Shown piece by piece: positions 57,401 to 63,270 of a stretch of DNA of 64,000 nucleotides. The notes under the pieces are model-generated. The model did not search any database, was not told where the DNA came from, and saw nothing but the letters and a program-made list of their open reading frames with translations. Source of the DNA: Conoideocrella luteorostrata (Eukaryota; Ascomycota; Sordariomycetes; Hypocreales; Clavicipitaceae). Where the stretch lies: the NCBI GenBank assembly GCA_032433595.1, contig JASWJB010000088.1:1-64000 (forward strand). The letters run 5' to 3'. The position numbers and the translations under genes are program-made. Positions within the stretch are counted from its first letter, which is position 1. Every line of letters starts with the position of its first letter.

Positions 57401-58089
57401 AGATCACTTCCAACAGAAACTGCCCCGGTGTCACAGAAACCATCTGACGATTCCGTAGTTGCTATCTTCCCATGCTGGATTGTAACGATCCAATTCCAGA
57501 GACTTCTTCTCCGCCAGTCCGACGTCGCTGATGTGCACGACTTCTAGATACCTTTTCTAATCTGTGGCATGATGGCTGCAAATGCTGCAGCCCCGCTGGG
57601 GCAAGAAACTGGTTCGAACCGCGGAGGCACAGAAAATTTTATGGGAACTGAGTCTTGGCTCCCCATGACCCACAGCTCATGGCGATGTTGTGGTGCAGCG
57701 TGCAGTGTGCAGGGCGACGCAGCCACAATTATAAAATTATTGGCAATGGAGAGGAGACAGGCAGCTGCCGGAGACTAGTCATAGATGGACCACAAGTGGA
57801 TGAGAAAATCATGGTAAGCAACGCGATCCTTCGACATTGTGAATGGAGATAGCTGCTGTGTGGGCGGAAAGGAGCCTCTAGGGTGGCCCGAATTAGTTCA
57901 TGTGAGGTTTTGAGCTTGACCGAATTGGTCAGATCAGATGAGATAGCTATAAGTAAGGGGCCTATCCTTCTCGTGGGCAGATCATCATCGAATTTAATTG
58001 CTTTTCCCCGCGTTCAAGAGGTGCGTCCTTAGCAGGAGCTTTGCTCTGCTACCTATCATGATTGAATTGCTCTCTTAGAGTGTGAAGTG

Positions 58090-58290
58090 GCTCAATAATT
58101 GCTGAGCAACCAGTCAGACCATTTGATCTTGCTGCAAGACAAAAGGTCTCTGCAAGGACCTTTCACAGAGTTTACGAAGCGTTCCTGGTTGTGTGTCAGA
58201 CACGAGTATACGTGAGTGGTAAGTGTGTGCATTGGAGTGCCGCATGTGCGTGCGTGCGGTTTGTGCGCACTACGTAGACAACTCGCAAGA
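58090..58290 (-). repeat. short dispersed repeat, copy C
   Basis: On the minus strand: CTCACGTATACTCGTGTCTG, then CACACAACCAGGAACGCTTC, then GAGACCTTTTGTC and AGATCAAATGGTCTG. The same blocks, in the same order, occur at 40310-40480 and 59870-59960 (plus) and partly at 52940-53075. Confidence 0.6.
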
Positions 58291-58554: not shown

Positions 58555-59364
58555 TCAGCCAGGAATTTCCAAAACTGTCACTTCATCCGTTAACTCATCC
58601 ACATCCACTTCGCAAAGTCCTTTGTATCGTGGGACTATGTCCCCCGTGTGAGCGGGAACGCCTCCGGCGCCAAGGAGAGCCCCTTTAGTGTAGTCGTCCC
58701 CCAGCCTATGTCCAAATTCCTTAGAGTAGTTGATCTCTTTAAGGCGGTAAGCAAAATCGCAATCCTTTAGATCGGACTTCCGGACCGAGCTGTTAACCTT
58801 ATCATGTGAGGCTGTGATTCCAGACCAGTCAGTGCCAGTCGCATTTGCGCGTAGAGAACCAGAGGCTTGCGCTGTTCCCGACCGCGTTTCCTCTAGATGA
58901 AGCCTGTCCGCAGTTGCAACACCAACAACCACATACAGTGGTTCCTCCCAACCCGTTTTTCTGATGTACTCTTCCACTTCCCTACGTCGCAGAGCTTTGT
59001 TCATGTAGTCCTCCGTCGGTATGAACACGGTGGCTTCAGCATTCTTTGCGATGACAGAGGTATTCACGCCACCCACCCGTTTCCCTTCCACATTTCCGGT
59101 GATTCCAAGAAATGAGGAGATTGATAGGATTGCCCTAAAAGCAAACCCTTTGTCGGTCTGTAAGTTCTGTTGGGCCGGTCCCGTAGACAGCTGGTGTTTA
59201 TACGTGCTGGAGGCTGGGATGTCCTTCTCGCCTTGGAGGTCTAGACATGATTCGAGTTCGCCCGGCCTGGTCAAAATGGTTCCCAGCTTCATCAACGTTC
59301 CCTTATTTGGAGGATACCGGGGTACCAACCATTTCAAGACACCAGCAAGTTGTCCGCCGCTCAT
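58555..59364 (-). CDS. gasdermin-like pore-forming protein (RCD-1 / HET-Q1 type)
   Basis: One exon of 269 aa from the Met at 59364. No signal peptide and no transmembrane helix. The overall pattern fits the fungal gasdermin-like family: a short basic N-terminus leading to a GTILTRP motif, a Gly/Ser amphipathic stretch, EATVFIPTEDYMNKAL, LYVVVGVATADRL, an alternating Gly/Ser/Ala region and DFAYRLKEI, ending in a 35-40-residue acidic tail (EVDVDELTDEVTVLEIPG). In characterised members, for example Podospora HET-Q1, a protease removes a short C-terminal inhibitory part and the N-terminal domain then forms membrane pores and kills the cell. The length matches HET-Q1-like proteins. The next gene upstream on the same strand is a subtilisin-domain protease, the known partner type, which supports the call. 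The assignment rests on motif memory, not on a search. Confidence 0.75.
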   Translation of the reverse strand: MSGGQLAGVLKWLVPRYPPNKGTLMKLGTILTRPGELESCLDLQGEKDIPASSTYKHQLSTGPAQQNLQTDKGFAFRAILSISSFLGITGNVEGKRVGGVNTSVIAKNAEATVFIPTEDYMNKALRRREVEEYIRKTGWEEPLYVVVGVATADRLHLEETRSGTAQASGSLRANATGTDWSGITASHDKVNSSVRKSDLKDCDFAYRLKEINYSKEFGHRLGDDYTKGALLGAGGVPAHTGDIVPRYKGLCEVDVDELTDEVTVLEIPG

Positions 59365-60201
59365 TTCGGCTCTATATTCTCTTTCCGATGAATGTATGGG
59401 ACTAAATAGACTATAATCGTTTCAATTTGTTGAAAAAAAAATGTTTCGGGTACTGGGTTGTGTGATCAGGTGCTTTGTTCGACAAGTTGTTGCAGGAGAA
59501 GAAGACCATGGACGCAGAAGACAATGGAAGAAGGGGAGGGCATGGGCCGCAATGAAGACTCATTTTACGACTCACCGCTCGTTCTGTACAACGTGAGTAA
59601 AAAATGAACACTTGCTCTGGTCTTGCCGTGGAAGACCATGGAATCCGATGGAAACTCATTCTACGCTGCTGTACAACGTCTGGCGCCGGGGCACAACAAA
59701 CCAATATTAGCTCAGTATTCCGTATCAGTGCATTATGTGTGTTATGGGTCTAAAATTAGTGTTTTCCAGACTATCAAATCGATTCCTTTGCACTTCGTAG
59801 CGCCTCCAAGCATACGGCGAAGTGAACCCCTAGTTTGTCTTTCATCTATACGGAGCTGACTCGCAATTGGTATCTTGTCGACCCAAAGCACACGCATACC
59901 GGTGTCTAAAACACAACCAGCAACGCTTCGTAAACTTTGTGAAAGGTTGTTACAGGGACGCCCGAGTACTGCGTACTTCAATAAGCAATTCAATTATAGT
60001 AGGCAAAGGAGCAAGGCTCCAGACAAAGACACACTCCGTGAACACGGGGGGAAACTTTCTTGATTCGATGATGGCTCACAGCAAGAGGGATAAGCCCCCT
60101 ACTTATAGCTATATCACTTGATCTGACCAATCCCGTGAAGTCCAAAAACTCACGGAATCCATTCCAGCCACCCTAGAAGCTTCTTTCCACCCACGCAATA
60201 T
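59365..60201. other. intergenic region between gasdermin-like and protease genes
   Basis: Two imperfect direct copies of a ~50-bp segment (GAAGACCATGGA..., then CTCATT(T/C)TACG...CTGTACAACGT) lie at about 59500-59600 and 59628-59685. Short repeat copy D is at 59870-59960. The 59365-59460 part should hold the gasdermin promoter; A9 at 59432-59440 is the only tract noticed. Confidence 0.45.
59870..59960 (+). repeat. short dispersed repeat, copy D
   Basis: GTCGACCCAAAGCACACGC, a shortened GTGTCTAAA block and ACACAACCAGCAACGCTTC match copy A at 40310-40480 and copy C at 58090-58290. Confidence 0.6.
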
Positions 60202-63192
60202 TTACGACTTCAACGCTGTTCTAATTTTACTCCAGGCATGCTTATATGCCATATCCATATTCATCTCACGGACCTCGTAATCATGCCAAAACATCTTGCT
60301 GGGTATCCAACGATAATTGCCGACGGGGACACTCATCTCTTGTAACACTTTGCGCATCCCCTTTGTGGTTCTCAGGTCTTGCAAATTGTATTCCCCATTG
60401 ATTCCGTCTCTGTTCTTGTCGCACTTTGATTGAAAAGCAAATGCGAGAACCAAGGAGCCGACCGCAGCCGCGACTGGCGTTGCAAACGACGCACCAGAAG
60501 CGTAACAGAAGCCGCCACCCTCGAACGTTGTGAATTGCGATACTATTCTTTCCCCAACGATCATCAAGTCTTGCCCCATAGTAGGCGATGCTGCAAAATC
60601 CGCTGCTTGTTTGCCGTGATCCGTTGACGGATAAATGCCGATAGCAAGGTCGCTATTATTTGCTGGCCATGCTATTTCTTCATGGAGCCCCTGGTTGGTC
60701 GTCGCTGCAAAAACAATCTTATTTCTATTCGCTTCCTTCAGGGCCTTCTCGAGGTCCTCAAAGGATTTGCCTTGAGACACTCTAAACTCCAGTGACATAT
60801 TTATAATGTCTACCTCTTTCTCAATCGCCCAACGGATTGCCTTCGAAGGGTGTTGTTAGCGGGAGGTAATCGAAATGTACAACATTGAAGATATTTATTT
60901 ACCTTTTCCACTGCATCAAGGCTCGGCTCCGATTCGCTTCCTTCGCAAACACGTGCAAAATAGGTATCAGAGTTCGGATTGAGCCGCAAGATGATGCCTG
61001 TGACTGCAGTTCCGTGACCATGAAGGTCTTCGACAGATTCCGAGTCTCCATCCGCACCGAAGTTCTTCCATTCCTTAATTCTGTCCCTCTGCGTGGAACC
61101 GTAGAGCTCGGGGTTGGGATTAGTGTCATGCGTTCCTGTGAACTGCTTTGTTCTGGCTTGCTTGAAATCAGGATGACCCAAATCAATCCCGGTATCAAAT
61201 ATGGCAATCTTGATTGGCTTATCACGCCTTTTTACATACTGAAGATAGTGGTCCACGGTTTCGTTTAAAAATTGAAAAGTTTTGGTCGAAGCGTACCCAG
61301 GCGACGGTTTGTTATCATGTAGATGAATGGGGCGGTATCCTGTGAGACACTGTATTAGAGAACCGTTATGAAACACGGTTAAAAAAGAAGCGAGTTGGAG
61401 CATAATTTGTTTGGCTGGTTTCGCCGAGGATGGTCAAAATGATTCATCTCCAAGACTCTAAAGAGCAAGTCAAGAAAACATGAACTACTCAGTACCAAAA
61501 AAGTCAAAGAGTGGCTACTTACCTAAATTGACTTCTCTCTTATACTCCTCTATCCCACTTCCAGTTTTAAGAATCCCGCCAAGATTAAGATTTGGACTTC
61601 CGCGGGAGGATGCTCTCTCATCGATATCGAGTTTCACAGATTCAACGATGCGTTTCAAAATGGCATCTTTGAAGTGTTGTTTTAGGCTCTGCTCTCAACA
61701 GTGCTTCAAACAAGCTGTGGAATTGTATACATGCCATCAATGCACACCTGCAACCATTTGGTAGTTTCGATCCATGATCCTCGATGTGCGCATATAACGC
61801 ACGTACAAGGTGGCCGGTATCTATCAACTTTCGACACTCGGCATCGAAGCCACCATGCAAATCTACAATAAGCTTTGCAAAGGAGAGGATAACGGGGAAC
61901 GTATGACTCAAATCCAACGAGCCCACAGATGGAATGCTTTCGGATAATTCGCAGCTGATATACGGCTGGTGAAGATTGTACACCATTTTGGTTTCAGCGT
62001 CGAACCCGAACAGAATATTTTCCGGTGTCCAGAGGGTCTGGATCCATGGTCCGCCATAAAGGCACGATAGAGCTTGCGCGAGCGTATATGTCAAAACACT
62101 TCTGTCCATTTCAGAAAACCTGGAGTTATGTTTCATAACTCCAAGCTTCAGGAGTTGATCCAGGGACAGCATGGAAGGTGCGGGAGAGTATGTTGTGTTC
62201 TGAGGGAGATAGAAATCGGACACCTTTCTAAGCTTGTCCTCTGTTAGACAGATTTTATACACCTTCCCTTCACTATGCAAGTCCTGGGTAAGTTTACAAA
62301 TGTTGACAGGAGAGTTGTTGCTGGGTGCGCGGATTGGATGCTCAGAGCACAACACATGCTGCCAGATATTCTGTCCCAAACAAGAGGATAGCAGCATTGA
62401 CATTTCGAGTTTGCCACTATCCGTACCCTGGCGCACAGGTCGTCTGAGATGAAGCCTGACGGTATGGACACCTCCCTTTTTACTGCATGGTCGCACATGA
62501 TGGACCATAGCTTCAAAAAGCCGCGTAGGAAAACTTGAGGTGTCGGTAGGAATCATATCTCGTGCAATGTCCTCCATTTTTTCGTAGAATCGATCCAGGC
62601 AGAGCGAGAGGTTCTTGATCTTGGACAAAGTTTGCTCTAAAACAATGAATATGCCTAACGAGGAAGAGATGTTTCTATTTTGAGGCTCTATTGGAGTAGC
62701 CAACTTGACTAGCCTCGGCCAGTGTTGGATGCAATTCAATGTGTAGTTGCTTTCGCCAGTGATCTGGGCAGTGAGTCGCAAAGAGGAAATATCTAATATG
62801 AAACCCTCAAGATCTGACAGCAATATACGAATTTCTCGAATGAATACTTCGCGGTGTTTGGCAAGCAAGTCGTCATGCAGTAAGGGTTCCGCCAAGATGA
62901 TAGCGCTAGAGCGAATAATAGAGTCGGTATAGTTCTCGATCAAGGTTTGATTGGCGCCATTGTTCTGCACAAAAATAAGTCAATATCGATGTCAACACGG
63001 CGGAATAGATGATGCAGATATCAGCGCCCGAAGCTGCGAAACAAAGCAGAAGCAAGAGAGTAAAGAGAACATCATCAGACAACCACGTACTGGATCTTTC
63101 AACTTCCACTCTATGCGACGTTGAAATAACGGCAAAACGCGTGTCAGGAGTTCCCAGTGCGATTTGACTTCAGTCATGCCCTCATCGGCCAT
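60202..63192 (-). CDS. DUF7580-like / subtilisin (S8) serine protease, probable gasdermin-activating partner (HET-Q2 type)
   Basis: Predicted exons: 63192-63091, 62964-61523, 61339-60903 and 60840-60202; introns 126, 183 and 62 bp. The N-terminal ~500 residues are helical and match the fungal DUF7580 pattern late in the region (LAQALSCLYGGPWIQTLW, ILFGFD, YISCEL). The C-terminal ~355 residues are a subtilisin domain with all three catalytic residues: Asp in IAIFDTGID, His in DLHGHGTAVTG, and Ser in ASGASFATPVAA. No signal peptide, so it is probably intracellular. Near 61680 the frame changes: MACIQFHSLFEALLRAEP is in one frame and KQHFKDAILKRIVESV in another. Either one base is inserted (inactivating, or a sequencing error) or a 61-bp GTGTGC...CAGAG intron is spliced out; both give the right phase. 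It lies 840 bp upstream of the gasdermin-like gene in the same orientation. Confidence 0.75.
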
Positions 63193-63270
63193 CTTTCTTT
63201 CGTTCTTTCGTTCTTTCGTTCTTTCGTTTTTTGTTTCTTTTGTTTCTTTTGTTTCTTTCGTTTCTCTTTA
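63191..63270 (+). repeat. microsatellite (TTTCKTTC-type) at the protease start
   Basis: A pyrimidine-rich run of TTTCG/TTCTTTCG units followed by TTTTGTTTC units covers the 5' leader of the protease gene just upstream of its ATG on the minus strand. Length variation here could influence expression; in most fungi such tracts are simply part of promoters. Confidence 0.7.

Follow-up and report, generated by a model that had tools for sequence, protein, structure and literature searches.

A gasdermin gene and a DUF7580–subtilisin protease gene form a probable regulated cell-death module in Conoideocrella luteorostrata

The analysed stretch of DNA (the window; 64,000 nucleotides, positions 1 to 64,000 of contig JASWJB010000088.1, here C88) carries a gasdermin gene on its reverse strand and, upstream of it on the same strand, a protease gene (60202–63192) with a DUF7580 domain and a subtilisin (S8) domain (Table 1). 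Conoideocrella luteorostrata is a scale-insect fungus of the Clavicipitaceae.

Table 1. Features of the gasdermin–protease locus, in window positions
Feature	Position	Strand	Remark
Gasdermin gene (fGSDM, HET-Q1 type)	58555..59364	(-)	269 aa, single exon, stop included
C-terminal tail, residues 214–269, presumed inhibitory	58558..58725	(-)	Position fits HET-Q1
KGALLGAGG, residues 227–235, candidate protease site	58660..58686	(-)	Likeness to paralogue tails
Last protease exon with S8 Asn (codon start 60696) and Ser (60489), stop included	60202..60840	(-)	
Protease exon with S8 Asp (codon start 61196) and His (61016)	60903..61339	(-)	
Second-frame continuation	61523..61694	(-)	Ends at GTAAGT donor (61522)
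Junction with change of coding frame	61645..61806	(-)	Frameshift or intron
Protease exon 2, frame 0	61690..62964	(-)	Holds DUF7580 at about 61690–62526
IQTLWTPENILF, at the position of the kinase catalytic loop; lacks an HRD motif	62008..62043	(-)	
Protease intron 1, GTACGT...GTGCAG	62965–63090	(-)	
Protease exon 1 (MADEGM...KLKDP)	63091..63192	(-)	

Judged from its sequence, the 269-aa protein belongs to the fungal gasdermins and is of the HET-Q1 type. Compared with the PDB by phmmer, it matched the HET-Q1 pore (9uv9) over residues 6–218 at E = 4.6e-28. A profile built from eight gasdermins of the same genome recovered HET-Q1 (8.9e-28), RCD-1-2 (2.2e-21), RCD-1-1 (3.7e-20) and bacterial gasdermins (7.5e-5). 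The gasdermin identity, which the sequence-only reading had drawn from motifs in a single-exon protein, is therefore the result of a test and not of motif resemblance. The single-sequence PDB search did not reach RCD-1 at E ≤ 1, no Pfam family matched the protein at E ≤ 1, and the first protein-database search, which includes fungal proteins and needs shared five-letter words, returned only the protein itself. The fold is read from sequence, because AlphaFold prediction from the single sequence gave a pLDDT of only 27.6 and no usable model.

The S8 protease should remove the gasdermin tail, by analogy with HET-Q2, which cuts HET-Q1 at F238 with the loss of about 40 residues (PMC10989679). Past the conserved domain, from residue 214, the tail comprises 56 residues with 11 Asp/Glu and 5 Lys/Arg. 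It had been described as short and acidic, and it is indeed short, but its acidity is only mild. KGALLGAGG lies near the place matching the HET-Q1 cut and resembles KGAFLAVGD and KGAFMTESG in the tails of two paralogues; it may serve as the protease site. A block search across nine tails, meant to detect a conserved cleavage motif, picked an acidic block only, and not KGALLGAGG. That block scored 403, whereas the best of 20 shuffles reached 393; this difference is weak, and weaker still given that the shuffles had fewer restarts.

The protease gene retains the catalytic motifs of an S8 enzyme. DUF7580 was recognised as PF24476 (E = 9.3e-37), and S8 as PF00082, split over two exons (E = 2.1e-9 and 7.9e-11), with its Asp, His, Asn and Ser in the motifs FDTG, HGHGT, ATTNQG and GASFATP, respectively. 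These matches bear out the earlier claim that an S8 protease with intact Asp, His and Ser precedes the gasdermin on the same strand. Its intracellular location, claimed as well, is plausible, with no signal peptide seen by eye. Exon 1 and the first GT-AG intron are plausible, as are the GT-AG introns that begin at 61522 and 60902, although for these two other choices have equal scores.

The coding frame of the protease changes between DUF7580 and S8, a point that the sequence-only reading missed. Frame 0 is open to 61645, and the continuation lies in another frame, open from 61694. Both stretches that look like the end helices of DUF7580 can be read, each in its own frame; the first helix has a Cys that never varies in DUF7580 alignments of 16 and 43 rows and an Ala that is nearly invariant in the 43-row alignment. 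These features argue for a frameshift, which we slightly favour and place within about 61694–61645; if real, it is probably recent, because no other lesion was seen in the gene. Assembly error is a less likely source of the frame change, because the published assembly combined Illumina data at 51.6x with Pilon polishing (PMC12352038), if the window belongs to that assembly. For strain ARSEF 14590, the published draft has 47.39 Mb in 864 scaffolds (PMC12352038), and these totals differ from those of the assembly searched here (46.4 Mb, 620 contigs).

Splicing offers the other explanation. A GT-AG intron at 61689–61806 (118 nt, donor GTACGT, score 6.0) would restore continuity and excise conserved DUF7580 residues including the invariant Cys, and an alternative 253-nt GT-AG intron from 61802, which would likewise restore it, scores higher (7.2) and would excise both helices. 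Leaving out the stretch up to 61807 costs just 3.8 bits of the DUF7580 score (122.7 vs 126.5 bits), and downstream of the junction the gene stays open throughout, given plausible introns. Comparison of the two frame pieces with relatives by BLAST was uninformative. DUF7580 and S8 share one open frame in the paralogues on C492 and C221, and the annotated C221 protein (P0049, 944 aa) has a short stretch of open frame dropped as an intron while both domains are kept. With this evidence on both sides, the chances are about even that the protease copy is a recent pseudogene, in which a frameshift parts the sensor from the protease and leaves the gasdermin intact but deprived of its own activator. 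Because of the frame change, the assembled protease gene may not yield a protein that extends from DUF7580 into S8, and the activator of the pair may be defective in this assembly. If the frameshift is true, an executioner without its trigger represents one half of the situation needed by the published model of het-Q incompatibility through pseudogenisation (PMC10197012).

One possible but unlikely reading of this pair, which we analysed in one strain, is a heterokaryon incompatibility (allorecognition) locus comparable to het-Q of Podospora, its alleles being polymorphic in the population; general defence is another possible role. The closest characterised relative found, HET-Q1, is itself an allorecognition protein. 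Against this, the literature describes just two incompatibility systems with fGSDM, although some 1900 fGSDM genes are counted (PMC10197012, PMC12881547), and HET-Q2 is much shorter than the protease in the window (PMC10989679).

The adjacency of gasdermin and protease genes, which the sequence-only reading had seen at one locus, recurs across the genome. Used as the query against the whole genome, the window gasdermin had eight matches, six of them at E < 0.01 (C88, C171, C23, C269, C30 and C203) and two weak (C130, E 0.148; C4, E 0.265). An iterated search of 20 loci confirmed C4, where two overlapping frames occur, and added C291 and C221, both found only by looking around DUF7580 loci. The C130 match had no S8 match near it and was taken as chance. 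All nine accepted gasdermin loci lie near an S8 match, at 1.0–3.4 kb from the middle of the gasdermin to the S8 match; the distance in the window is 1.5 kb, on the same strand and inside the 10-kb cluster criterion. Gene orientation is tandem on C88 and C221, divergent on C171 and C203, and convergent on C23, C269, C30, C4 and C291. Seven of the nine loci adjoin a DUF7580–S8 gene, and the S8 partner on C171 was taken as an ankyrin–S8 protein (P0101).

The strong whole-genome matches are the sole unbiased sample for this adjacency, because the C291 and C221 gasdermins were sought near DUF7580 and the window had been preselected for its pair. All six strong matches, the window gasdermin and five others, have an S8 match less than 3.5 kb away. 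The share of the genome within 10 kb of an S8 place is no more than 3.8% when 88 places are counted, picked by hand from the S8 exon matches with the intention of omitting further exons of the same genes, or 4.8% when all the exon matches are counted. Although the genome has many S8 genes (111 exon matches), it is extremely improbable that gasdermin and protease are unrelated chance neighbours, since five of the five strong matches other than the window gasdermin sit beside S8 against at most 3.8–4.8% expected per gene.

Many fungal genera besides Conoideocrella have DUF7580–S8 proteins. Ten DUF7580–S8 genes are visible in the present genome (C88, C5, C492, C291, C30, C23, C203, C221, C269 and C587). 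A gasdermin lies beside seven of them and none was found at the other three, two of which (C492 and C587) are near contig ends. A protein search with five DUF7580–S8 proteins, in which the best 7996 candidates were scored and genomic context is not given, returned at least 77 proteins, 26 of them with both PF24476 and PF00082. The two-domain proteins include members of Trichoderma, Metarhizium, Fusarium, Xylaria, Alternaria, Penicillium, Aspergillus and Diaporthe, all of which we take to be Pezizomycotina. The name DUF7580 was not found in the literature searched.

DUF7580 is likely to be a degenerate kinase (pseudokinase) domain, as profile comparisons suggest. A profile of all DUF7580 sequences (16 rows, three of them HeLo-linked) reached the PDB with a best E of 2.5e-6, and the best 60 of its 156 matches were all kinases. 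With the S8-linked DUF7580 alone (10 rows), nine of nine matches were kinases at a best E of 0.51, which is not significant. Alignment to eight kinases with hhalign gave 3.1e-4 (probability 39%) for the 16 rows and 0.026 (probability 1.9%), in register, for the 10 S8-linked rows, compared with 0.47 for a gasdermin control and 0.089, out of register, for another DUF7580 set. The 43-row alignment, made with 42 of 124 found proteins picked mainly for missing most of S8, matched mostly subtilisins through its S8 row ends; over DUF7580, among the best 60 of 63 matches, it found only the PERK kinase at E ≥ 0.34. By eye, an HRD motif was present in none of the 16 aligned rows. A long alignment of full DUF7580–S8 proteins was set aside for the fold question, as the window exon end was misaligned with an S8 motif.

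Three HeLo proteins of the same genome carry Pfam DUF7580. A broader reading would make DUF7580 one pseudokinase switch common to two fungal death pathways, leading to gasdermin firing (pyroptosis-like) when fused to S8 and to MLKL-like killing (necroptosis-like) when fused to HeLo, with the switch just cut from the protease by the frameshift in this locus and the executioner left without its own trigger. We regard this combined reading as tentative and rather doubtful.

The locus is very probably a two-gene regulated-cell-death module consisting of a tail-held gasdermin and a DUF7580–S8 activator. Both proteins belong to the families concerned, the S8 motifs are in place and the adjacency is repeated in the genome. 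From these observations we infer the following course. The gasdermin would be kept inactive by its short C-terminal tail, and the protease would sense something via its N-terminal DUF7580, a degenerate kinase-like part that is probably no enzyme but a switch working through conformation or dimerisation. Once activated, the S8 domain would cut the tail, whereupon the N-terminal portion of the gasdermin would form pores that kill the cell. The published function of fGSDM/protease clusters is reviewed in section 15 of PMC10197012 and section 21 of PMC12881547.

The activating stimuli of such proteases are described as a major open question (PMC12881547). For the sensor half of a class of fungal gasdermin-activating proteases, our analysis supplies DUF7580 as the Pfam name and pseudokinase as the hypothesis for the fold. 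A single genome with at least seven parallel DUF7580–S8/gasdermin pairs is useful for tests of pair specificity, and the window offers a natural case in which the activator may be broken and the executioner intact.

The locus is a further member of the published fGSDM/Q2-like two-gene cluster (PMC10197012, PMC12881547). About 80% of fungal gasdermin genes cluster with protease genes, and Q2-like (Q2L) proteases are named there (PMC10197012). To this known type we add DUF7580 as probably a pseudokinase shared with HeLo proteins of the same genome, the DUF7580–S8 proteins of other genera, and a protease frame that is interrupted between DUF7580 and S8, be it by a frameshift or by an unusual intron. 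The earlier description as a HET-Q-like pair holds for the kind of system, which fits published fGSDM/Q2-like clusters, but probably not for orthology of the protease. The HET-Q1/HET-Q2 pair of Podospora anserina also consists of a short-tailed gasdermin, the one matched at the PDB, and an S8 protease; HET-Q2 has 388 aa (PMC10989679) and the window protease carries DUF7580 ahead of S8, so that, judged by the published length, it appears not to be an orthologue of HET-Q2. Multidomain Q2L proteases share the fGSDM–S8 two-gene cluster and an extra N-terminal part; the ankyrin–S8 partner on C171 is such a published architecture, and fusions to "other predicted kinase-like domains" are mentioned (PMC12881547). 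Unlike the Q2L proteases as described, the window protease has its N-terminal part assigned to Pfam DUF7580. RCD-1 of Neurospora crassa belongs to the same gasdermin family by the profile matches, but its activation depends on allelic variants pairing with each other instead of on cleavage (PMC12881547). HeLo-kinase/pseudokinase proteins of MLKL-like architecture are alike in that DUF7580 stands on three HeLo proteins of this genome, whereas in these proteins the HeLo domain itself is the presumed executioner and there is no separate gasdermin.

A ~380-bp dispersed repeat occurs on both sides of the gasdermin gene. The two flanking copies lie in inverted orientation and are 74–84% complementary, and inversion of the gene between them is conceivable. 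With 40 of 163 candidates scored, this repeat has at least 41 matches in the genome, including at least three inside the window.

Features of the window and of related loci in the same genome
Feature	Position	Strand	Remark
Dispersed repeat copy, one side of gasdermin gene	57857-58235	+	~380 bp repeat
Dispersed repeat copy, other side of gasdermin gene	59891-60197	-	~380 bp repeat
CT-rich tandem tract, 8- and 9-base units	63192-63264		immediately upstream of protease start codon
Gasdermin copy in two overlapping frames	L022:4182-4996 = C4:324181-324995
DUF7580, then effector-like stretch	L029:4258-5910 (C450)		stretch judged by eye

The split of the gasdermin on contig C4 over overlapping frames points to an intron or frame change in that copy too. 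Beside the DUF7580-S8 gene on contig C5 (locus L024), no gasdermin was found within the 9 kb examined there.

The presumed sensor domain DUF7580 also occurs in other proteins. On contig C450, the stretch that follows it resembles a nucleoside-phosphorylase-type effector, of which Pfam gave no confirmation. Furthermore, DUF7580 is present on HeLo proteins of this genome at L033 (C512), L034 (C54), and L035 (C555), a combination that constitutes an MLKL-like arrangement.
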